From a virus, in IMG/VR virus record IMGVR_UViG_3300002180_000006, positions 1 through 42,997 of that record: DNA of 42,997 nt; one strand, 5' to 3'. The notes under the pieces were generated by a model. It did no database searches and was not told the DNA's origin. It saw only the letters and a program-made list of their open reading frames with translations. Positions 1-42,997 of this stretch are shown piece after piece (positions within the stretch are counted from its first letter, which is position 1; each line of letters starts with the position of its first letter). The position numbers and the translations under genes were made by a program.

Positions 1-79
1 TTTCATAGTTATCCCATGCAGGTTGTCTTATTTTTTCATGGTTATCCCATGCAAATTGTATTACTTTTTCATAGTTATC
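1..79. repeat. Left copy of the 79-bp terminal overlap
   Basis: Bases 1-79 are identical to 42919-42997. The overlap exceeds two 33-bp repeat units and includes the diagnostic variants (cccatgcaaattg, tcttatttt), so it is a specific match and not just any repeat unit. It is best read as the overlap of a circular or circularly permuted assembly; a true short terminal repeat is less likely because the large terminase is of the Sf6/P22 headful type. Confidence 0.9.
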
Positions 80-415
80 CCGTGCAGGTTGTCTTACTTT
101 TTCATATTTATACCATGCAGATTGTTCTAAAAGTTCTGGAATAATTGCTATTTGACTAAATTCACCAAGTATAATCTTTTTTACAATTTCTTGTGGAAAG
201 TTATTTATATCTGAAAAATCAGTACATTCCATTCTTTTTCCTTGTTTACTTGATAACCCAAAATATTCACGAATGGCTCCATGTCCTTTTATTTCTTCAT
301 AAAAATTATAATTCAGTTTTCTACAAAGTTCTTTACCATCCGGGGTATTTAATTCATAATTAGAAATATACAAAAGTTTACCTTTATATTCTATCCAACT
401 TATAAATTCACACAT
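1..415 (-). CDS. N-terminal part of an 11-residue-repeat protein that crosses the circular join
   Basis: Starts at ATG 413-415 after AAAGGAG and 2 bp past the stop of the 75-aa gene. The frame stays open to base 1 and continues in the same frame from 42918 to a TAA at 42773-42775, giving 186 aa on the circle. Residues 1-100 are unique sequence (MCEFISWIEYKGKLL...). Residues 101-166 are six copies of an 11-residue unit of the type WDNYEKVRQPA, with the 33-bp DNA repeat visible at both window ends. Short Trp/Tyr/Lys-rich repeats of this type occur in many uncharacterised phage proteins; function is unknown. The repeat number may vary or be mis-assembled, because the contig ends lie inside the array. 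It belongs to the minus-strand string of tiny early genes. Confidence 0.8.
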   Translation of the reverse strand, partial: MCEFISWIEYKGKLLYISNYELNTPDGKELCRKLNYNFYEEIKGHGAIREYFGLSSKQGKRMECTDFSDINNFPQEIVKKIILGEFSQIAIIPELLEQSAWYKYEKVRQPARDNYEKVIQFAWDNHEKIRQPAWDNYE

Positions 416-10981: not shown

Positions 10982-11000
10982 TACATCAAGGAGGAATATG

Positions 11001-11993
11001 ATGGTTGAAAGTAATCTGGATGACACAGTTGTTGATGGCATAGTTATTGATGACACAGTTGTTGATGACACAGTTGTTGATGACACAGTTGTTGATGACA
11101 CAGTTGTTGATGATACAGTTGTTGATGACACAGTTGTTGATGACACAGTTGTTGATGACACAGCTGATTGGATGAAGGAGGATGATGACCAGACATTATC
11201 TGATAGTATGCCTGTTAGTGCACACATACGTGCAAAACGTAAGCTAAAGGGGAAAATCGAGGATAGAGATGCTGAGATTGAGAAACTCAAGAAGGAAAAT
11301 GAAGGCCTTAAAAAACAAGGTTCAGCAACTCCTATTCGAGATAAAATCCTGGTAAGACCTAAACAGGATGAATTTGAATCCTTTGAGGCTTACCAAACTG
11401 CTCTGGATGAGTATGAAGACAAACGACTTGATTCTAAAATTTCTGTTATACATGGGCAAAATCAACTTCGTGATACACAAGCGAAGGCAATTAAAAAACT
11501 TAATTCAGCAGTAGACGACCATTATCTACGGGCTGATAAGTTGATTAAAGACAGTGGTATTTCAGCAGAAACTTATAAACAAGCGGATGAGATAGTAAGA
11601 AGTGCCATAGAGGCAATTAGGCCAGGGCAGGGCAACATAGTCGTTGATCAAATAATTTCTCTCTTAGGGAAAGGCTCTGAGAAAGTTATATATAAACTAG
11701 GAAGGAGCAATGCTCTTAGGGGTGAATTAATAACTCTTCTTTCAGAAGACCCCCATGGTTTGAGAGCAACTGCTTTCTTAGGTGAACAGAAAGCAAAACT
11801 ATTAAGTACCACAAAAAGAAGATCAACTGCACCTGCACCTGCAAATGAATTAAATGGAGACGCTTCTTCTTCTAATAAAGAGCGAGTTTTCAAAAAGAAG
11901 TATGATAATGCTCACTCTAAAGGCAATTCTCAAGCTGCCTATAATGCTAAAAAAGAGGCAAAAGCTGCAGGTATTAATACTTCTAAGTGGTAG
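11001..11993 (+). CDS. Scaffolding protein candidate with acidic DDTVV repeats (330 aa)
   Basis: Position between portal and coat, length near the 303 aa of P22 gp8, and charged helical content point to the scaffold. Two ATGs lie side by side (10998 and 11001); the second has the better 7-nt spacing from AAGGAGG. Residues about 6-55 are roughly ten units of DDTVV, giving a very acidic start. A coiled coil follows (RKLKGKIEDRDAEIEKLKKE), then an ordered-looking middle and a basic C-terminus (KKEAKAAGINTSKW), as expected for a coat-binding tail in P22 scaffold. Function is inferred from synteny. Confidence 0.75.
   Translation: MVESNLDDTVVDGIVIDDTVVDDTVVDDTVVDDTVVDDTVVDDTVVDDTVVDDTADWMKEDDDQTLSDSMPVSAHIRAKRKLKGKIEDRDAEIEKLKKENEGLKKQGSATPIRDKILVRPKQDEFESFEAYQTALDEYEDKRLDSKISVIHGQNQLRDTQAKAIKKLNSAVDDHYLRADKLIKDSGISAETYKQADEIVRSAIEAIRPGQGNIVVDQIISLLGKGSEKVIYKLGRSNALRGELITLLSEDPHGLRATAFLGEQKAKLLSTTKRRSTAPAPANELNGDASSSNKERVFKKKYDNAHSKGNSQAAYNAKKEAKAAGINTSKW
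11019..11166 (+). repeat. In-frame 15-bp tandem repeat in the scaffold gene
   Basis: About ten units of GATGACACAGTTGTT, seven of them almost identical at DNA level (one has GATGATACAG). The second unit is degenerate (DGIVI). Near identity including third codon positions means recent expansion. Confidence 0.9.
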
Positions 11994-21637: not shown

Positions 21638-21973
21638 ATGTCAGTAATAATAAAAAATGTTTATATGGCCCAACCAGCAGCAGCAAATACTACATTATAT
21701 ACTTGTCCTGCTAATACTCAAGCAAGGATTCTTAAATGCACTGTTACTAATGATACTATCACTGCTGCTACTATTAGTTTTAATAAAGTACCGTCTGGTA
21801 GTGCAGTAGCAGCTACTAATTTAATATTAAATCTTAAAGCCATTGGAAATAAAGAGACTTATGAATGTCCAGAAGTAGTAGGACAAGTATTAAATGCTGG
21901 GTACTTAATTAGTGCAATCGCAAGTATAGTAGATCAATTAACAGTAGCTCTAGATGTGGTGGAAATTGTATGA
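21638..21973 (+). CDS. Small beta-rich structural protein (111 aa)
   Basis: Starts MSVIIKNVYMAQPAAANTTL after AAAGGAGAATAAT. The sequence is Thr/Ala/Val-rich (CTVTNDTITAATISFNKVPS) and reads as a single beta-sandwich, similar to small virion proteins next to fibre genes in many phages. Overlaps the next gene by 4 bp. Function not known; likely a minor tail component. Confidence 0.65.
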   Translation: MSVIIKNVYMAQPAAANTTLYTCPANTQARILKCTVTNDTITAATISFNKVPSGSAVAATNLILNLKAIGNKETYECPEVVGQVLNAGYLISAIASIVDQLTVALDVVEIV

Positions 21974-22308
21974 CGAATTTTATATTATATTACGGGCCTA
22001 CTTATGGTCTGAGAACAAATGAGAATTATTTAAATTTTAGGTGGTTACTTAAAGATACTTTAATGTTAGCTTCAATAACACAACAAGGGAATGCAGCTGT
22101 TTGTCATTTTTATTCTGATAAAAGAGGTCTTAAGTATTTGAAACAAGCTGTTTCAGAATGGTGTGAGTATGTATTTAAAACCTGTGATTGGTGTAAAATG
22201 ATGTTAGGCGTTGTTGAAAAACCAAGTGTTGAAAAACTAATGAAGAGTTGTGGTTTTAGAAAAGTGGCTTATACAAAAAATAAAGCACTTTACATGAAGG
22301 AGAAGTAA
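21970..22308 (+). CDS. GNAT-like or unknown small protein (112 aa)
   Basis: ATG overlaps the previous stop. Starts MTNFILYYGPTYGLRTNENY. The C-terminal third (VEKPSVEKLMKSCGFRKVAY then ALYMKEK) resembles the end of GNAT acetyltransferases: an alpha helix, GF, then a strand with Tyr. The acetyl-CoA loop (Q/R-x-x-G-x-G/A) is not visible, so activity is doubtful. Similar GNAT-like proteins lie among ejection-protein genes in other P22-type and marine podoviruses, so a virion or assembly role is possible. Confidence 0.5.
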   Translation: MTNFILYYGPTYGLRTNENYLNFRWLLKDTLMLASITQQGNAAVCHFYSDKRGLKYLKQAVSEWCEYVFKTCDWCKMMLGVVEKPSVEKLMKSCGFRKVAYTKNKALYMKEK

Positions 22309-22309
22309 A

Positions 22310-23245
22310 ATGGGTGGAGATGGAAGTGGAGAGGTTTGGGAACAAGTATTAACACCTGGAAGACAAGTAGAATGGTTTGGCATGGGTGGTGATGGTGGTG
22401 ATGGTGGTAGTGAAGCTGCTGATGCCGCGGTAGAATCTGCAGATATTTATTCTGATGCCGCTATTGATGCTGCAAAAATTCAAGCAGGGTCTCAAAAAGA
22501 AGCTTTAGATTACCTCAAAGAAAGAGAAGAACTTCCCCAGAAACTCAGAGAAGGAGCTTTAATATCACTAGGTAGATTGCAAGGATTTGGTGGAGAATAC
22601 GGAGATCAAGAAAAAATGATTCAACGTTCAATTGATTCTCCATTATACCAAAGCATTATAGAAGGTAAAGAAGCCGGTGAAGAAGCTATTTTAAGATCAG
22701 CATCAGCGACAGGGGGTTTACGATCTGGAGATACAAGTTATAATTTATATGATTATAATACACGATTACAAAATAGTGCTTTGTTAGCATCATATAATGA
22801 ACAACTTATGGGACTTCAAGGGCTAGCAGGATTGCCTTCTAATTCAAATACAATTGCTAGTTCTATGGAGGGTATTGGTGTGACAAAAGCTGGGGGGACT
22901 CTGGAGTCTGGTAGAGCAACATCCCAGGGAATTACTGCTGCTGCTCAAGCAAATATTATGGCTGAACAAGCAGCAACAAATAACTTAATGGGGTTAGCAA
23001 GTTTAGGCATTTCAGCAGTTGGTGCATTTTCAGACCGAAGACTTAAATCTAATATAAAGAAAGTTGGAACAGTAAGAGGGTTTAATTTTTACTCATTTGA
23101 CTGGAATTCTGTTGCAAATATGTTAGGGCTTGAGGGTTCTACATACGGTTGTATGGCTGATGAAGTTTTCCAAGTTGCCCCAAAAGCAGTCACATTAAGA
23201 AATAACTTTATGTTTATTAATTACTCAGCAATAGGAGTGTTATAA
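22310..23245 (+). CDS. DNA-transfer (ejection) protein with C-terminal S74 chaperone domain (311 aa)
   Basis: Begins with a Gly-rich tail (GMGGDGGDGGSEAADAA) followed by helical segments typical of phage DNA-transfer proteins: AAIDAAKIQAGSQKEALDYL, LPQKLREGALISLGRLQGFG, ATGGLRSGDTSYNLYDY, GLQGLAGLPSNSNTIASSME, then AAAQANIMAEQAA. From residue 241 comes SDRRLKSNIKKVG...FNFYSFDWNS...YGCMADEV, the intramolecular-chaperone (peptidase S74) signature; Ser241 and Lys246 have the spacing of the self-cleavage dyad. The domain is short, about 71 residues. By order it corresponds to P22 gp7/gp14-type proteins. Confidence 0.85.
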   Translation: MGGDGSGEVWEQVLTPGRQVEWFGMGGDGGDGGSEAADAAVESADIYSDAAIDAAKIQAGSQKEALDYLKEREELPQKLREGALISLGRLQGFGGEYGDQEKMIQRSIDSPLYQSIIEGKEAGEEAILRSASATGGLRSGDTSYNLYDYNTRLQNSALLASYNEQLMGLQGLAGLPSNSNTIASSMEGIGVTKAGGTLESGRATSQGITAAAQANIMAEQAATNNLMGLASLGISAVGAFSDRRLKSNIKKVGTVRGFNFYSFDWNSVANMLGLEGSTYGCMADEVFQVAPKAVTLRNNFMFINYSAIGVL

Positions 23246-24960
23246 TGATGGAAGGAAATCCTTATTTTGTTAATCCAATGGGAGACTATTCTAAAGGTCT
23301 TGCTGGTCTAACAGGAGCTATAAATCAATTTGGCAAAGAAAGAAAAGCAGATCAAGCCAAAAAAGATAAAGAAACCATTTTTGAAGGAGCTGCAGAAGTT
23401 TATAAGAAAGGTGATCCTGAAGCTATAGCAGAGTATTCTTTAAAGTATCCTGAAGTTAGAAATAGTCTTATATCAGCTGTCAACTTTAGAGACCAGTCAA
23501 CCAAAGAAAACTTTATAAATTCATCATTTAAAATTATACAAAATGCAGATAATCCTGAAGAAGTTGCTAATATAGTAAAATCGCGACAAGCTTTCCTCAA
23601 AGCCAAAGGGATTCCTCCTGAAGAAACGAGAGCAACAGATTCTTTTTTAAAAGCGTATGAAGCAAACCCAGAAAATGCCATTAAAAAGTTAAAAGGAACA
23701 GTTGCTGCCATGGCTCCTGAAAGATATAAAGCTTATAGAGAAACTTTAGGAACTGCTGATACTAAAAAGACTGGTGATGTAAAGAATTTTGAATATTATC
23801 AAAACCTTAAAGAAACCCATCCTGATTTAGCAGATAGTTTTGGTATAAAAACAGGATTTAAGAAAGATGATAAAACAGCAGCAGTAAAAAACTTTAATAC
23901 TTTTATAAACCTTTTAAATACTGATCCAGAAAAAGCTAAATTATTTGGTGACTCCATTGGTATTAATAGAACTACACCTTATACTGATATGGCAAAGTTA
24001 AAAACTGATTTAAACAATGGCCTTATAACAGAAGAAGATTACCAATCAAGAAAAGAAGCTTTACTAAACCCAACAATGAAAAACAAAACAGAGTTAACTA
24101 TGGCAGCTCTTCGCGGTAATGAAGAAGCTAAAAATGTTTTAAAAGCTTTAGCATTAGATGATGTTACAACAGCTGGTAAAAGAAGTCAAGCTTCGACTGA
24201 AGGAAAACTCACAGCATTATATGCAGCCATGGATTTAGATGGAGTAGCTCAAGCTGTTTTAGAAGGCAAAGAAACTATAGACAACGTGCGCAATACTTTT
24301 GGTGTTCCAATTCAAGAGGTTGTCCGGGAGAAAATTTTAAGTTCAGAACCAGATTTTAATTTTGTACAACCGAGAGCCATCCAAAAATCTCTTTCATCTT
24401 CTTTGGCACAGCAACAGAAAAATAGAGGTGCAATGGGTAGTTTTGTTAAGAATATAAATGGCCAACTTAGTAAAGTTGAAGATATAATGCGAAAAGTTAT
24501 TAATAGAGTTGGTGTAAGAGCCTTAGATTACCCCTGGAGAGAACTACATACAAGGTTTAAAGGTTCAGGTCATGAACGAGTTCTTGAAGCTTATATGAAG
24601 GAAATAAGTGTTGAAATATATAAATTATCTCAAGGTTCAACTGCATCAGTTGCACTGCTTCCTGAAAAAGGTAGAATAGAATGGGAAGGAATTCATGATG
24701 TTACTTTATCTTACCCAGAACTTAAAAAAGTTCTTGTAGGCACAAATGATATGGCTAATATTCGTTTAAAATCTGTAAATGACGAAATAAAAGAAACTAT
24801 TGACAGACTTGGGAATATCCGAGAACTTAAAAACGTTTATACAGCTGGGCCAGGAGAAGCAGGAGCTGAATTTGAAGATTCGAATACCATAACAGTTACA
24901 AATCCTGATACAGGTGAAGAAGAAGTCTGGGATACAGTAACTGAAAAGAGGATTAAGTAA
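23245..24960 (+). CDS. Ejection protein candidate (571 aa)
   Basis: Starts at ATGATG overlapping the preceding TAA by 1 bp. Long, mainly helical, Lys/Glu/Ala-rich: MMEGNPYFVNPMGDYSKGLA, then GAAEVYKKGDPEAIAEYSLK, NADNPEEVANIVKSRQAFLK and a second half with LYAAMDLDGVAQAVLEGKET. Position between the S74 ejection protein and the 953-aa protein corresponds to P22 gp20. Such proteins leave the virion with the DNA and line a conduit across the envelope. No enzymatic motif seen. Confidence 0.7.
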   Translation: MMEGNPYFVNPMGDYSKGLAGLTGAINQFGKERKADQAKKDKETIFEGAAEVYKKGDPEAIAEYSLKYPEVRNSLISAVNFRDQSTKENFINSSFKIIQNADNPEEVANIVKSRQAFLKAKGIPPEETRATDSFLKAYEANPENAIKKLKGTVAAMAPERYKAYRETLGTADTKKTGDVKNFEYYQNLKETHPDLADSFGIKTGFKKDDKTAAVKNFNTFINLLNTDPEKAKLFGDSIGINRTTPYTDMAKLKTDLNNGLITEEDYQSRKEALLNPTMKNKTELTMAALRGNEEAKNVLKALALDDVTTAGKRSQASTEGKLTALYAAMDLDGVAQAVLEGKETIDNVRNTFGVPIQEVVREKILSSEPDFNFVQPRAIQKSLSSSLAQQQKNRGAMGSFVKNINGQLSKVEDIMRKVINRVGVRALDYPWRELHTRFKGSGHERVLEAYMKEISVEIYKLSQGSTASVALLPEKGRIEWEGIHDVTLSYPELKKVLVGTNDMANIRLKSVNDEIKETIDRLGNIRELKNVYTAGPGEAGAEFEDSNTITVTNPDTGEEEVWDTVTEKRIK

Positions 24961-27821
24961 TGCCATTGCCAAAATATGTTCAAGATGCTTTTGACAGTAA
25001 AAATCTTTTTGCAGAAACTCCTCCTATGGAGAGTGGTATAGCAGAAACTCCTCCTATGGAGAGTGATATAACAGAAACTCCTCCTATGGAGAGTGATATA
25101 ACAGAAACTCCTCCTATGGAAAGTGGTATAGCAGAAGATACTGTTCCTTTGGGTAGCCAAAGCCCTTTTCCACGAGGGAGTATTCCCAAAACAGAAAGCA
25201 GTCTTCCTGATTATGTTCTTAAGGAAATGGGAAAAAGAGAACAACCTGAAGAATGGGGCACTGACTGGATGAGAGAGAACCCAACTCTTGCAGGTTTATA
25301 TGGTGCAGGTAAGGGGTTACTTGAACAAGCAGTTGTTCCGACTATTGAAACTATAGGAATGATTGGTGGGAGTGCGGGTTCTCCTATTGTTGGGACAGCT
25401 CTTGGTTATGGAATGGCAAGACAACTTAGTGACTATCTTGTAGATTCATATAAGCGTCTTGGTGGAGAAGATATTGAAAATAAAACAGTTGGCGAAGAGA
25501 TGCTTCAAAGTGCTGCAGATGTTGGTACAGTTTTAGTTATGGGTAAAGCCATGGATATGGGGGTTAAGGCAGCGCCTTATATTGAAGATTACTTATTTAA
25601 AGAGTTGCCAAAGAGATTATATGCAAGAGCAATTAAAACTCCAATGTCTAAAAAGTGGATACAAACTCTTCCTAATGAAATAGTTTCAAAACAAACAGCT
25701 GCTATTGAAGAAGGACTTAGATCTAGGATTCCACCAAGTAAGTATGGACTTTCAAAGATAAAAAATCTTGAGAAAGAAGTATCGGGGTATATTGATGACA
25801 TTACTAAAATACTTTCTGAGGACCCTAGTAAAGTTATTAACAGAGAAGATATTCTTAAAGAGGGTTTAAAGAAAGCTTATGCTAAAGCTGCTACTAGTAG
25901 TGATCCAAAAGGAGCTAAAGGAATTGTTGATGCTATAGCTGACAGATTTAGAGCACACCCTGGTAGTTTAACTCCAGCAAAAGCAAACCAAATTAAACGT
26001 CAATTGTATAAAGAAGTAAAGTATGGGGCTTCAGAACCTGGAGCAATTAAAGCTCAAATGGATATAGTTGGAAAGAAGGGTGTGGCTAGAGAAATAATGC
26101 TAAACCTAGAAAAAACATATCCTGCATTGGCAGAACTTAATGCAACTGATGCCGCAAGAATAAGTTTAACCGAAGCTATTGAAAAATCATATGCCAGGGA
26201 AGCTCAAAAAAGCATGGTTCCCTTGGGAGCAAAAATATTATTACGTCCCAAAACTTGGCCACTATCTTTATGGGAATCGACTATTGGGCACCCACAGATA
26301 AAAACAAGATTAGCTTTTGCTTTACATAAAGCTAATCCTGTTAAGTACCCAGCTAAGCCTTCAAAATATACTCCACCAGTTACTCCAAAAGCTGTTTCAT
26401 TAACCACAAAACCTCCTGAGTCTCTTATTGGTTTAAAGGGTAAAGCTCTACCCGAAGGAACTTATACATCAAGCCAGTTAAACAGAATGCTTAAGTCAAA
26501 AGATGTTATTAAAGTAGATACAGCTTTAGAAAGCATCATTGAAAAAAGAATGGCTGATCATCTAGAAAGACAAAAGCATGTTACAACTGTTAATAAAATG
26601 CTGGGAATTCTTAAAAATGAAAAAGGTGCAGTTGGCCGTGACATAGGAAAAAAAAAATTAATTAAACCAGAGGTTAAATTAACTACTAAATCAGTTGTTA
26701 AGCCAGTTGTTAAACCAAAAATTAAGTTAGCTAAACTATTAGAAAAAGAAGATTTAGGTTATAAAAACTTTCTTGAAAAAATGATTAAAAATGCTCCAAA
26801 TAAAATAATTAAAGCAGAATTAGAATCAGTTAGAGAGTTTATCCATCCTAATAGCATAGATAAAGTAACAAAAGCAGCAATAAAACACAGTGGAGGCAAA
26901 ATAGCAAAGGGTAAAAACCATGCTGAAATATATAAAGCTTTAGAATTAAAAGGCATACCTTTTAAAAATACTGAAGATATAGGTTTTGTAACAAATAAAA
27001 ATAAATTTATGACTAGAGATCAAGCTGAAATTTTATATAAGTCTTATTCTGCTGATGAATTTTTTAATCCAGCTATTAAAAATATGATAAATGAAAAAGC
27101 AGTAGAAACTATTCTCAAAAAAGGTTCAGTTAAACCAGTTGCTAAACCAACTGCTAAACCAAAAGAACCATTTGCTAAACCAGAGGTTAAACCAAAAGAA
27201 AAAATACTTTATCATACTTCTCATAAACTTTTAAAAAGTGGTAAACCAGTTAAAGATGCTTATTATGGAAATAAAGATTGGGCAAAAATGCATATAAGAG
27301 GTCGTACTGAAGAAACTCATAATTTTGGCGGTTATACTTATAAAGTAAAAGTACCTTCTAGTGCTAAAATTTTAGATTTAAGAAGTGGTTCTAAAGAATC
27401 TCGTGAACTTATGGCTAAATTTAATCATCAAGAGTATTCTTCGAATCCAGAATTTGCTAAAGATCTTTTAGCAGGTGATAAAATAGCTTTAGATGTTTTT
27501 TATGATGATTGGGCTGAATCAGCAAATAAGATTCTTAAACTTGCTAAATCTAAAGGGTACGATGGAATAAAATTTAATGATGAATATTTTTTATCTAAAG
27601 GTTTAGTTAAAGAAATTCATGAAGTTGGACAAAGAACTTTAAAACCAATTGCTAAATCAGTAGCTGAACCAAAAATTAAAATTTCTATTAAAGAGGAGCT
27701 TAAAAAATTAAAGGCAGATCTTAAAGAATTCAAAGAATTTGGAGATGATCTTGAATATATTGAAGATCTCAGTAAAGAAATTAAAAAGTTAGAAGCACTT
27801 GAAAAGAGGAGTAAGAAATGA
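24960..27821 (+). CDS. Large ejection protein with ADP-ribosyltransferase-like C-terminal domain (953 aa)
   Basis: By order equivalent to P22 gp16, the largest ejection protein. Residues 18-57 are four 10-residue units (ETPPMESDIT type). Residues about 110-170 are Gly/Ala/hydrophobic (AGKGLLEQAVVPTIETIGMI), possibly membrane-active. Helical middle; Lys/Pro-rich linkers (KPVVKPKIKL near 580; KPVAKPTAKPKEPFAKPEVK near 726-745). From 749 an ART-like module: ILYHTSHKLLK with His752, GGYTYKVKVPSSAKILDLRSG near 793-813, and KSKGYDGIKFNDEYF near 863-877. H...Y...GYDGI layouts are seen in ART domains of polyvalent phage proteins. Catalysis is inferred; the final acidic residue (Glu875 or a nearby Glu) is not certain. 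Confidence 0.75.
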   Translation: MPLPKYVQDAFDSKNLFAETPPMESGIAETPPMESDITETPPMESDITETPPMESGIAEDTVPLGSQSPFPRGSIPKTESSLPDYVLKEMGKREQPEEWGTDWMRENPTLAGLYGAGKGLLEQAVVPTIETIGMIGGSAGSPIVGTALGYGMARQLSDYLVDSYKRLGGEDIENKTVGEEMLQSAADVGTVLVMGKAMDMGVKAAPYIEDYLFKELPKRLYARAIKTPMSKKWIQTLPNEIVSKQTAAIEEGLRSRIPPSKYGLSKIKNLEKEVSGYIDDITKILSEDPSKVINREDILKEGLKKAYAKAATSSDPKGAKGIVDAIADRFRAHPGSLTPAKANQIKRQLYKEVKYGASEPGAIKAQMDIVGKKGVAREIMLNLEKTYPALAELNATDAARISLTEAIEKSYAREAQKSMVPLGAKILLRPKTWPLSLWESTIGHPQIKTRLAFALHKANPVKYPAKPSKYTPPVTPKAVSLTTKPPESLIGLKGKALPEGTYTSSQLNRMLKSKDVIKVDTALESIIEKRMADHLERQKHVTTVNKMLGILKNEKGAVGRDIGKKKLIKPEVKLTTKSVVKPVVKPKIKLAKLLEKEDLGYKNFLEKMIKNAPNKIIKAELESVREFIHPNSIDKVTKAAIKHSGGKIAKGKNHAEIYKALELKGIPFKNTEDIGFVTNKNKFMTRDQAEILYKSYSADEFFNPAIKNMINEKAVETILKKGSVKPVAKPTAKPKEPFAKPEVKPKEKILYHTSHKLLKSGKPVKDAYYGNKDWAKMHIRGRTEETHNFGGYTYKVKVPSSAKILDLRSGSKESRELMAKFNHQEYSSNPEFAKDLLAGDKIALDVFYDDWAESANKILKLAKSKGYDGIKFNDEYFLSKGLVKEIHEVGQRTLKPIAKSVAEPKIKISIKEELKKLKADLKEFKEFGDDLEYIEDLSKEIKKLEALEKRSKK
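25011..25130 (+). repeat. Four 30-bp in-frame tandem repeats in the 953-aa ejection gene
   Basis: Units start (G/A)CAGAAACTCCTCCTATGG and differ by a few bases (GGTATA or GATATA ends), coding for ETPPMES(G/D)I(A/T). The very low divergence points to recent expansion. Confidence 0.9.
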
Positions 27822-29974
27822 ATATTCTCAGCAAAATGTTAAGGATTCTTAAGAATGAAGGTGGCTATATTAAAGTTGAATTAGGACCTACTTATTTTCC
27901 ACAAAGAACAATTGGTAGACCAATCTCAAATGCACAAATTTATGTTGGGGATCCTGATACTGATCCTGAAGTTGTTGGGAATCAAATATCATTATTTGTA
28001 CAGGAAGAAGATGGAACTATTGTTGAGGTAACACAGCCTATTAGAACCAATGCAGGTGGTACTCCAATATATGATAGTTCTCCTGTTACTTTATTAGTTG
28101 CAAGCAACTACTCACTTAAAGTTTTAGATTCTACTGGAGTACAAGTATATTATATTCCAAGTACAGATGTAAGTACTTATAACACTATTCTTAACCATTG
28201 TACTCCTAATTATCTTGCAACTGACCAAGGACTTACTGGTGAATCAAACACTGTAAAATTTTGTGTAGATACAATAAACACAAGTGAAGGAACAATTTTT
28301 TTGCGTCATAATTCTGGTGGAGCAACTACAACTTATACTTTTTCTACAAACGAAACTATACCTGTTAACATTAATCTTGAAATAGAAAAAGGCGCAAAAA
28401 TGTCTATTGATGCTGGAGTAACTCTTACTATTGAGGGTTTTTTTGGTCCAGGGTTATATCAAGTAGTTACTGGTGATGGCAATATACAAGTAGGTACAAG
28501 AGTAAAAGAAATTCATCCACATTGGTTTGGAGCTGTAGTAGATGGTTCTACAAATGACGCAGCAGCATGGAATAAGGCTTTTGGATCAGTTGATGTATCT
28601 GATGCGAATGAAAGTGGAGCAACAATAATTGTTCCAGCAGGCACAAGTGTGGTTAATGACTCTATTGATGTACCCGGGAATGGAAGATGGATAGTAAGAG
28701 GCCATGGTGATGTGTCAATAATAGAAGCTAATGGTCCTGATGCATTTACATTAGCTAGTGATGGTAATACTCACAGTGTTTTTGAGCATTTTAGAATGCA
28801 AGGAGATAATACAGCTGGAAAAGCAGCATTTAACTGTACTCCTGATGATCCTTTAACTGAAGTATGTACTGGAGTAAAATGGCAGCATTTGAGAATAACA
28901 GGTTTTAAAATAGCATTCAATGTCCCAAATACTCAATTATGTTTTTGGGAACATATTTCTATAGCTTTTACTGTTACAGGATGTTCAGTATTTTATATGA
29001 ATACAAGTGGGGTGTATAGTCAAAGTAATTCTAATAACGTTACTGAATCTCAATTTACTGGTGCAGATGCACAAGTATATGATTTTACTTTTACCGCAGG
29101 TCAAAATAGAGCTACAACATGGGTACTTAAAGATACTGAAATTCAATTCTCAGGCACAACTATCCCAATTACTATTCAAGATGTTGGTTATATAGTAGAC
29201 AATTGTGGGTTTGAGAATAGTACAGCTGATAATCTTATAGACATTGTTTGTACTGATGATTTTGTACCTCACAATATAAGGATTGAAAATAATACTTTTA
29301 CTTTTACTCCTACAGGAGCTACAGCTCCTGTTAATATCAGACGAACTGGAGCAGTTCAATACCCTGCTATAATAAATATTAATAATAATAGTTGGAATCC
29401 TGCTCTTAATATTGTTGATATAGGAGATGCCCTTCAAATTCATATTGAGGGTAATCAAGGTAAGGTTAATAATACAGGTGGAAGAGTTATTACTGAAATA
29501 AACAACAGTGATACTTTAGGGACTGTTAGAATGAGTTCTGTTAATACAGCTTCTGACATGCTTCTTGTGGGTACAGAAATAGTTGCTGGTGCTAATACTG
29601 GAGGTTATACTAGAGTATTTGAGAAAGCTTTTTATTACCAAACTACTAATGCCAATGCTACAAATTTTATAATACATAATCTAGCTGAAGGCGAAGTTGC
29701 CACTGTTTTTGTTACAGCATCTGCTTGGAATACTACAGATGATAATGCTTGGGCTGGCTATATGAAAAGGGCTACAGCTTATAGAGCTGTAGCTGGTGCT
29801 GCCACATTACTTGGAACTGATGAAGATATTGGCACAGATAATGAAACTACTGTTGGATGGGATTTGGGTATAGGAGTTAATGGAAATGATATAATAGTTA
29901 TAATGACAGGAGAAGCAGCTAAAGATATTAACTGGGGCTTTAGCGTAAAATTAGTAGTGGTTAATGATAGTTAA
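27818..29974 (+). CDS. Tailspike with P22-type head-binding domain and beta-helix (718 aa)
   Basis: Residues about 28-120 match the P22 tailspike N-terminal domain: RPISNAQIYVGDPDTDPEVV, GNQISLFVQEEDG, VTQPIRTNAGGTPIYD, YSLKVLDSTGVQVYY. This domain fixes the spike to the tail hub. Residues about 220-560 form a pectate-lyase-type parallel beta-helix (WFGAVVDGSTNDAAAWNKAF, ATIIVPAGTSVVNDSIDV, GNGRWIVRGHGDVSIIEANG). The C-terminal beta domain (about 600-718) likely trimerises the spike. Such spikes bind and often cleave surface polysaccharide, which is the basis for inferring a Gram-negative host. Catalytic residues cannot be assigned by eye. Confidence 0.92.
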   Translation: MNILSKMLRILKNEGGYIKVELGPTYFPQRTIGRPISNAQIYVGDPDTDPEVVGNQISLFVQEEDGTIVEVTQPIRTNAGGTPIYDSSPVTLLVASNYSLKVLDSTGVQVYYIPSTDVSTYNTILNHCTPNYLATDQGLTGESNTVKFCVDTINTSEGTIFLRHNSGGATTTYTFSTNETIPVNINLEIEKGAKMSIDAGVTLTIEGFFGPGLYQVVTGDGNIQVGTRVKEIHPHWFGAVVDGSTNDAAAWNKAFGSVDVSDANESGATIIVPAGTSVVNDSIDVPGNGRWIVRGHGDVSIIEANGPDAFTLASDGNTHSVFEHFRMQGDNTAGKAAFNCTPDDPLTEVCTGVKWQHLRITGFKIAFNVPNTQLCFWEHISIAFTVTGCSVFYMNTSGVYSQSNSNNVTESQFTGADAQVYDFTFTAGQNRATTWVLKDTEIQFSGTTIPITIQDVGYIVDNCGFENSTADNLIDIVCTDDFVPHNIRIENNTFTFTPTGATAPVNIRRTGAVQYPAIININNNSWNPALNIVDIGDALQIHIEGNQGKVNNTGGRVITEINNSDTLGTVRMSSVNTASDMLLVGTEIVAGANTGGYTRVFEKAFYYQTTNANATNFIIHNLAEGEVATVFVTASAWNTTDDNAWAGYMKRATAYRAVAGAATLLGTDEDIGTDNETTVGWDLGIGVNGNDIIVIMTGEAAKDINWGFSVKLVVVNDS

Positions 29975-42772: not shown

Positions 42773-42997
42773 TTACTCCTTTATGTTTTTCCAATTTGGT
42801 ATTCTATTTAAAGGATTAGAAAATAATTCCCAAAAAACAGGTTGTATTACTTTTTTATAGTTATCCCGTGCAAGTTGTCTTACTTTTTCATAGTTATCCC
42901 ATGCAGGTTGTCTTACTTTTTCATAGTTATCCCATGCAGGTTGTCTTATTTTTTCATGGTTATCCCATGCAAATTGTATTACTTTTTCATAGTTATC
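42773..42997 (-). CDS. C-terminal part of the 11-residue-repeat protein
   Basis: Continuation of the gene that starts at 415; on the unit circle it runs 42918 down to TAA 42773-42775 (42919-42997 duplicate 1-79). This part adds the last repeat units (WDNYEKVRQLA, RDNYKKVIQPV) and the unique end FWELFSNPLNRIPNWKNIKE. The frame is kept because 42,918 is divisible by 3 and both sides agree, which supports the circular join. Confidence 0.8.
   Translation of the reverse strand, partial: DNYEKVIQFAWDNHEKIRQPAWDNYEKVRQPAWDNYEKVRQLARDNYKKVIQPVFWELFSNPLNRIPNWKNIKE
42919..42997. repeat. Right copy of the 79-bp terminal overlap
   Basis: Identical to 1-79; see the left copy. One copy should be removed when the genome is circularised. 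Confidence 0.9.

Follow-up and report, generated by a model that had tools for sequence, protein, structure and literature searches.

The DNA analysed here (the window) is one entire IMG/VR virus record of 42,997 bases. Its late genes encode a 953-aa protein that is fairly likely to be an ejection protein in the position of P22 gp16, with an N-terminal core for DNA delivery and an exchangeable C-terminal half carrying a phrog_839-like mini-domain and a divergent domain of the ADP-ribosyltransferase (ART) superfamily; the protein would be packaged and injected, and would ADP-ribosylate a host target. Residues 748-897 are probably an ADP-ribosyltransferase-type domain. The fold and the delivery are both likely, and ART activity is predicted; we infer packaging, injection and catalysis from the position of the protein and from its relatives.

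A second contig of the same phage (L002) was 100% identical to the window over 16.5 kb and 99.99% identical over 13.4 kb. The ends of the window (1-125 and 42838-42997) lie in an array of ~33-bp tandem repeats, and both are bridged by L002/L101. Because L002 crosses the two ends via the tandem repeat, the genome is probably complete and self-closing. Also encoded were DNA polymerase A, an Enc34-type ssDNA-binding protein, a VapE-type primase, a SNF2-type helicase and Thy1, and no integrase was found among ten ORFs scanned. The virion module was of the P22 type, with a coat protein (PF11651, 219 bits), Terminase_3, members of the portal and Hc3 families, and a tailspike head-binding domain. Short in-frame tandem repeats (VVDDT) were present at the 5' end of the scaffold gene (10998-11993).

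The genes ran in the order coat, Hc3, gp7-like, gp20-like, 953-aa ORF and tailspike, and both ends of the 953-aa ORF overlapped the adjoining ORFs in a late operon without breaks:

22310..23245, + strand: gp7-like ejection protein with a C-terminal Peptidase_S74 chaperone domain (phrog_598 'DNA ejection', 2e-6; PF13884, 1e-7)
23245..24960, + strand: gp20-like ejection protein (phrog_2534 and phrog_917, 'released from the phage upon host infection')
24960..27821, + strand: 953-aa protein in the P22 gp16 position, the largest of the ejection cassette (synteny gp7-like / gp20-like / 953-aa ORF / tailspike)
27818..29974, + strand: tailspike with P22 head-binding domain (PF09008, 8.7e-19)

With its coat, portal, Hc3 and the order gp7-gp20-gp16-tailspike, this is a P22-type ejection cassette, and the placement like P22 gp16 that the first-pass annotation had given to the 24960-27821 ORF was borne out, the ORF lying after the gp7-like and gp20-like genes and before the tailspike. 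No Pfam, PHROG or phage tblastn match assigned the 953-aa protein to the P22 gp16 family. Family searches with the whole protein and with the ART-like domain returned weak matches to NDK, LAMB1 and ATP-grasp, which are unrelated and were put down to chance. In several related phages the gp7-like protein (22310-23245) was kept at 50-60% identity as far as its intramolecular-chaperone Peptidase_S74 end; this domain is chiefly familiar from tail fibres and spikes. Adjoining the gp7-like gene was a small acetyltransferase-like ORF (21970-22308; phrog_1249 weak, E 0.09), which was kept at 33-63% identity in many related phages. Within the ejection protein, short in-frame tandem repeats of the ETPPMESDIT type were found at 25014-25130.

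Relatives were sought in loci fetched via the neighbouring Hc3 gene, 50 and then 80, and the gp16-position protein was read wherever a locus reached it. The nearest relative, in locus L010, is a full-length homologue of 977 aa, 43% identical overall and ~74% identical over residues 101-450. The 953-aa protein divides as follows:

25188..26399, + strand: conserved N-terminal core, residues 77-480 (72% identity with the aligned part of L010; DNA 78% identical over 25261-26387)
26388..27821, + strand: apparent C-terminal cargo half (no DNA similarity to L010; DNA on either side 71-79% identical)
26889..27059, + strand: small domain, residues 644-700 (HAEI...GFVTNKNKFMTRDQA), resembling stand-alone phage proteins of phrog_839 (function unknown)
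27129..27200, + strand: K/P-rich linker, residues 724-747 (from sequence)
27201..27650, + strand: ART-like domain, residues 748-897 (homologues in L010 and L029/L030; ART profile; model and fold search)

The most hydrophobic glycine-rich stretch of the core, by hydropathy, was residues 119-153. When the window was compared with the L010 late genes by blastn, the aligned parts were 71-79% identical; similarity ended at 26387 and returned in the tailspike at 27866, so that the C-terminal half of the protein looks like a cargo slot. Residues 644-700 were 38% identical over 50 aa to WOZ57317.1, which belongs to phrog_839 at 5e-17, and their direct match to phrog_839 was weak (E 0.04). This mini-domain, with the pattern GFVT..F.TR..A, is fused into the ejection protein in the place where L010 has a different module.

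Two independent relatives of the ART-like domain were found, both via synteny. One was L010; the other was L029/L030, two near-identical copies of an otherwise different gp16-position protein of 1,218 aa, with an N-terminal SLT transglycosylase and a domain of the window type at residues 696-860. No further homologue was found in viral contigs, bacterial genomes (GTDB contigs), or phage and plasmid records. Weak matches (E 0.02-0.5) in 277 genomes from the class of one relative's MAG were partial and were not accepted as homologues.

The motif elements ILYH (749-752), DAYYGN (766-771, with Y768/Y769), GYDGI (866-870) and DEYF (874-877) occur in the order found in ARTs. The predicted functional residues are:

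27213..27215, + strand: H752, predicted NAD-contacting histidine of strand 1 (invariant in 3/3 homologues; model strand 748-754)
27261..27266, + strand: Y768/Y769, predicted strand-2 aromatic (YF in L010, FF in L029)
27561..27563, + strand: D868 of GYDGI, matching the strand-5 aspartate of the ART-PolyVal layout (invariant in 3/3; layout from PMC5512222)
27579..27584, + strand: D874-E875, an acidic pair like D146/E147 of AcrIF11Pae2 (E875 invariant; D or E at 874 in homologues)

The H...Y...GYDGI motif that the first-pass annotation had read within residues 749-880 was present just as described, and the catalytic glutamate it expected would be E875; H752 and E875 were kept in 3/3 homologues. 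In the three-way domain alignment, H752, D868 and E875 were invariant at 30-36% identity. The ordered pattern LYH..YY..GYDGI occurred in four of 1,407 ORFs (407,351 aa) from the window and related phage loci and in none of five shuffled sets; the four were the window ORF, the L010 domain recognised by Pfam as ART-PolyVal, and L029 and L030, each with a member of the domain family found in the window. In L010, the homologue of the window domain has GYDGI replaced by DIDVI and scored -1 bit against an ART profile.

The L010 protein carries a recognisable ART immediately before its homologue of the window domain. Residues 616-775 matched ART-PolyVal (PF18760) with 33.7 bits, above the cut-off of 31.2, when the cut-out domain was the query; the whole L010 protein gave no ART match. 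The counterpart of this module in the window is the different small domain at residues 644-700. The window domain itself had no Pfam, PHROG or PDB sequence match, and neither it nor the second L010 domain nor the L029 domain matched PF18760 at E<=10. When 20 related virus records were searched directly with Pfam ART-PolyVal, there was no match. ART-PolyVal-like domains were seen in related P22-type phages on ORFs lying between the portal and scaffold genes (L004:4724-5704, L005:5335-6303 and L065:1-1158), with a weaker one at L064:2264-3778.

Profiles were built from phage ARTs around the virion RNA polymerase of Roseovarius Plymouth podovirus 1 (RPP1) and others, with the window's family left out. 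With a 12-member ART profile, the L010 module scored 44 bits, and the window domain beat 600 shuffles yet was not significant (E 0.15). With a 15-sequence profile, the 953-aa ORF was the sole significant match in the six-frame proteome of the window (E 0.0021). Against 2,925 sequences, mostly natural segments from related phages, the 15-member profile matched the window domain at E 0.0094, which ranked it directly under ARTs or parts of proteins that bear ARTs by motif. When a three-row profile of the domain was compared with the ART profile, 0 of 100 column shuffles reached the real score, and a pairwise profile comparison with the first L010 module alone was uninformative. The profile evidence is supportive rather than proof because the local match is mostly the GYDGI segment. 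The layout of H in strand 1, Y in strand 2 and D in strand 5 was found in the domain, with H752 and D868 invariant, Y768/Y769 present, and the model strands at or adjoining these residues.

An AlphaFold model from the three homologues only had a pLDDT of 44.5 and no confident fold, and its fold search, which served as a control for alignment bias, matched nothing. With the L010 ART-PolyVal module added as a fourth row, the model reached a pLDDT of 68.2 and a pTM of 0.64. The added row was one sequence, 25% identical in the alignment; it matters and could bias the fold, because the model without it finds nothing. Strands in the model were 748-754 (with H752 inside), 768-770 (Y768/Y769), 792-798, 804-806, 869-872 (after D868) and 875-878 (from E875). 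The best Foldseek match of this model in the viral library was a PolyVal ART (E 6e-5). In the PDB it matched a cyanophage A4 pre-ejectosome chain (9k3a_B, E 0.009), AcrIF11 (6kyf, prob 0.98) and an Xre-RES complex (prob 0.57), with no PDB fold match at E 0.001 or better. The ART-type domain first annotated on the largest ejection protein is partly supported, by the L010 ART-PolyVal module, the profile match, the ART-like model and the invariant H752, D868 and E875, but it lies below the Pfam cut-off and its model needed one ART row: AlphaFold gave ART-type neighbours with that row (pLDDT 68) and no fold without it.

The domain may have the ART fold and yet no longer be an enzyme, a decayed ART-PolyVal module that serves the ejection protein in structure or binding, as would fit the distance of the window domain from the ART-PolyVal profile, the missing tyrosine in L029 and missing GYDG glycines in the L010 copy, a strand 5-6 connection shorter than in canonical ARTs, and the fact that in L010 the domain adjoins a canonical ART, as if doing another job. 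We consider this unlikely, since the invariance of H752, D868 and E875 at 30-36% identity would be unexpected were catalysis lost, and F or W at the strand-2 position also occurs in other phage ARTs. It is more improbable still that residues 748-897 form some other alpha/beta domain, not related to ARTs, where chance or convergence produced LYH, YY and GYDGI. Such a domain would account for the absence of a family match and of a confident fold without the ART row, but not for an ordered motif that is absent from shuffled sets and found elsewhere solely in the L010 ART-PolyVal module and the domain's homologues, for its place as the top ART-profile match of the window and the profile-profile score that no column shuffle reached, or for the ART-type neighbours of the second model.

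If the domain is an active ART, a course of events can be proposed from better studied phages. In P22, the DNA is accompanied into the cell by gp7, gp16 and gp20, whose release is quantitative, with ~12 copies of gp16, and ejection proteins are thought to cross the tail at least partly unfolded and then refold (PMC8402733); the C-terminal part of T7 gp16 has been assigned to the cytoplasm (PMC8954989). From these two systems a C-terminal ART would be expected to be delivered before transcription. By analogy, some 12 copies of the 953-aa protein would be packaged in the head and would exit through the tail together with gp7 and gp20, and the C-terminal part would end up in the cytoplasm, a fate also proposed for T7 gp16-C. 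Since ejection proteins would pass the tail at least partly unfolded, a small domain behind the K/P-rich linker (724-747) is a plausible passenger. The ART-like domain would refold in the cytoplasm, H752, Y768/Y769 and D868/D874/E875 would bind NAD+, and ADP-ribose would be passed to a host target ahead of any phage gene expression; this target might be a defence complex, as for AcrIF11, or RNA polymerase, as for Alt. That the ART instead works in the virion or in morphogenesis, or remains in the periplasmic conduit without ever encountering a target in the cytoplasm, is very doubtful, for although position shows co-expression with virion genes rather than ejection of the 953-aa protein, in which the P22 gp16 family is unrecognisable by sequence, the order gp7-like, gp20-like, 953-aa protein and tailspike is that of P22, whose gp7, gp16 and gp20 are released (PMC8402733), and the C-terminal part of T7 gp16 is cytoplasmic (PMC8954989).

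Other gp16-position proteins also showed variable segments. A second lineage (L029, L032, L079, L020 and L069) had common flanks of ~23-41% identity with non-aligning segments between them; in L029 the slot held an ART-like domain of the window type, in L032 a weak DUF3990-like insert and in L079 an unrelated one. The RPP1 ART also touched the DUF3990 model. The L079 insert (L079:15773-18871, residues ~455-660) had no Pfam match and occupies the same slot as the ART-like domains of L029 and L032. In a third lineage an insert was present in L015 and missing from L023, L038 and L096. Among 34 other complete or near-complete gp16-position proteins, a firm or homologous ART-type domain was found in L010 and L029/L030 and a tentative one in L032; in most of the others no ART was apparent by motif. 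The L015 insert was not accepted as an ART, with nothing in support past a YH motif, nor was that of L032, on a weak DUF3990 match alone. If these proteins are injected, their combinations would resemble those of polyvalent proteins: phrog_839-like and ART-like in the window, ART-PolyVal and ART-like in L010, SLT and ART-like in L029. An N-terminal SLT transglycosylase was found on the gp16-position proteins L029:16773-20429 and L065:12629-14899 (62 and 88 bits), whereas a review says that P22-like phages lack that module. It is quite possible, and we put it forward tentatively, that one group of P22-type podoviruses uses the gp16-position protein to carry effectors in an exchangeable slot, where different ART types and other inserts replace one another between conserved flanks. 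The DNA conduit would then itself bring enzymes against the host, perhaps defence inhibitors like AcrIF11, into the cell before phage gene expression.

The P22 proteins gp7, gp16 and gp20 are usually described as builders of the conduit, and we know of no effector domain in P22 gp16. In the literature searched, largely without subscription papers, no report of an ART on a P22-type gp16-position protein was found. If exchangeable enzymes ride on the largest ejection protein, effectors of P22-type phages have a way into the cell at time zero, as T4 Alt and the N4-type virion RNA polymerases (vRNAPs) do, and metagenomic gp16-position proteins would be worth searching for new enzymes that counter host defence. 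In a survey from 2022, ARTs were present in just ~3% of siphoviruses and podoviruses (PMC9503650); domains of such divergence, under Pfam detection, may escape surveys of that kind.

ARTs on injected phage proteins are known from T4 Alt, from N4-like vRNAPs and other polyvalent proteins, and from MuF fusions (PMC5512222, PMC9503650, PMC5576092). The window domain shares the strand-1 histidine, the strand-2 aromatic residue and the GYDG aspartate with ART-PolyVal (PF18760; Tox-ART-HYD2 clade), for example that of the RPP1 vRNAP, and the layout including the strand-5 aspartate has been described for polyvalent phage ARTs (PMC5512222). The RPP1 ART is on a large podovirus-ejected protein, as the window domain probably is, and ART-PolyVal recurs in multidomain injected proteins (PMC5512222). 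In contrast to the first L010 module, a true member, the window domain goes undetected by Pfam and joins strands 5 and 6 by a very short connection, and its carrier is a P22-type gp16-position protein rather than an N4-type vRNAP. P22 gp16 has the same gene order and cassette, but it is 609 aa long (PMC8954989) and no sequence similarity to the 953-aa protein was detected. The cyanophage A4 chain that was the best PDB fold match and Phormidium phage Pf-WMP3 gp26, a strong match in the viral library with no Pfam ART match, are both large ejectosome or internal-type proteins; neither is P22-type, and their likeness to the window domain is by fold match.

T4 Alt, an ART carried inside the head, enters the host along with the DNA (PMC5512222, PMC9503650), and the first-pass annotation had likened the window domain to it. 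The comparison holds for timing only: Alt belongs to the R-S-E clade and is a separate internal head protein of a myovirus, whereas the window domain is H-Y-D/E, as in ART-PolyVal and AcrIF11, and is fused to a podoviral ejection protein. Membership in the Alt/VIP2 (R-S-E) clade, and with it T4 Alt-type chemistry, was ruled out, as strand 1 has His, not Arg, in all homologues. The MuF polymorphic toxins are similar to the 953-aa protein in being virion proteins with an exchangeable C-terminal effector, of which ART is a common type (PMC5576092), but there the carrier is a portal-associated protein of temperate phages. AcrIF11, the second-best PDB fold match of the model, is an ART that silences CRISPR-Cas, and its homologue AcrIF11Pae2 is inactive with H20A/Y46A or D146A/E147A (PMC12421852). 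No AcrIF11 chain was among the PDB sequence matches, and the likeness is one of fold and residue layout only, with H20, Y46 and D146/E147 forming the same H...Y...DE layout as H752, Y768/Y769 and D874-E875 in the window. AcrIF11 is a small free protein made after infection, whereas the window domain is a module of an ejection protein.
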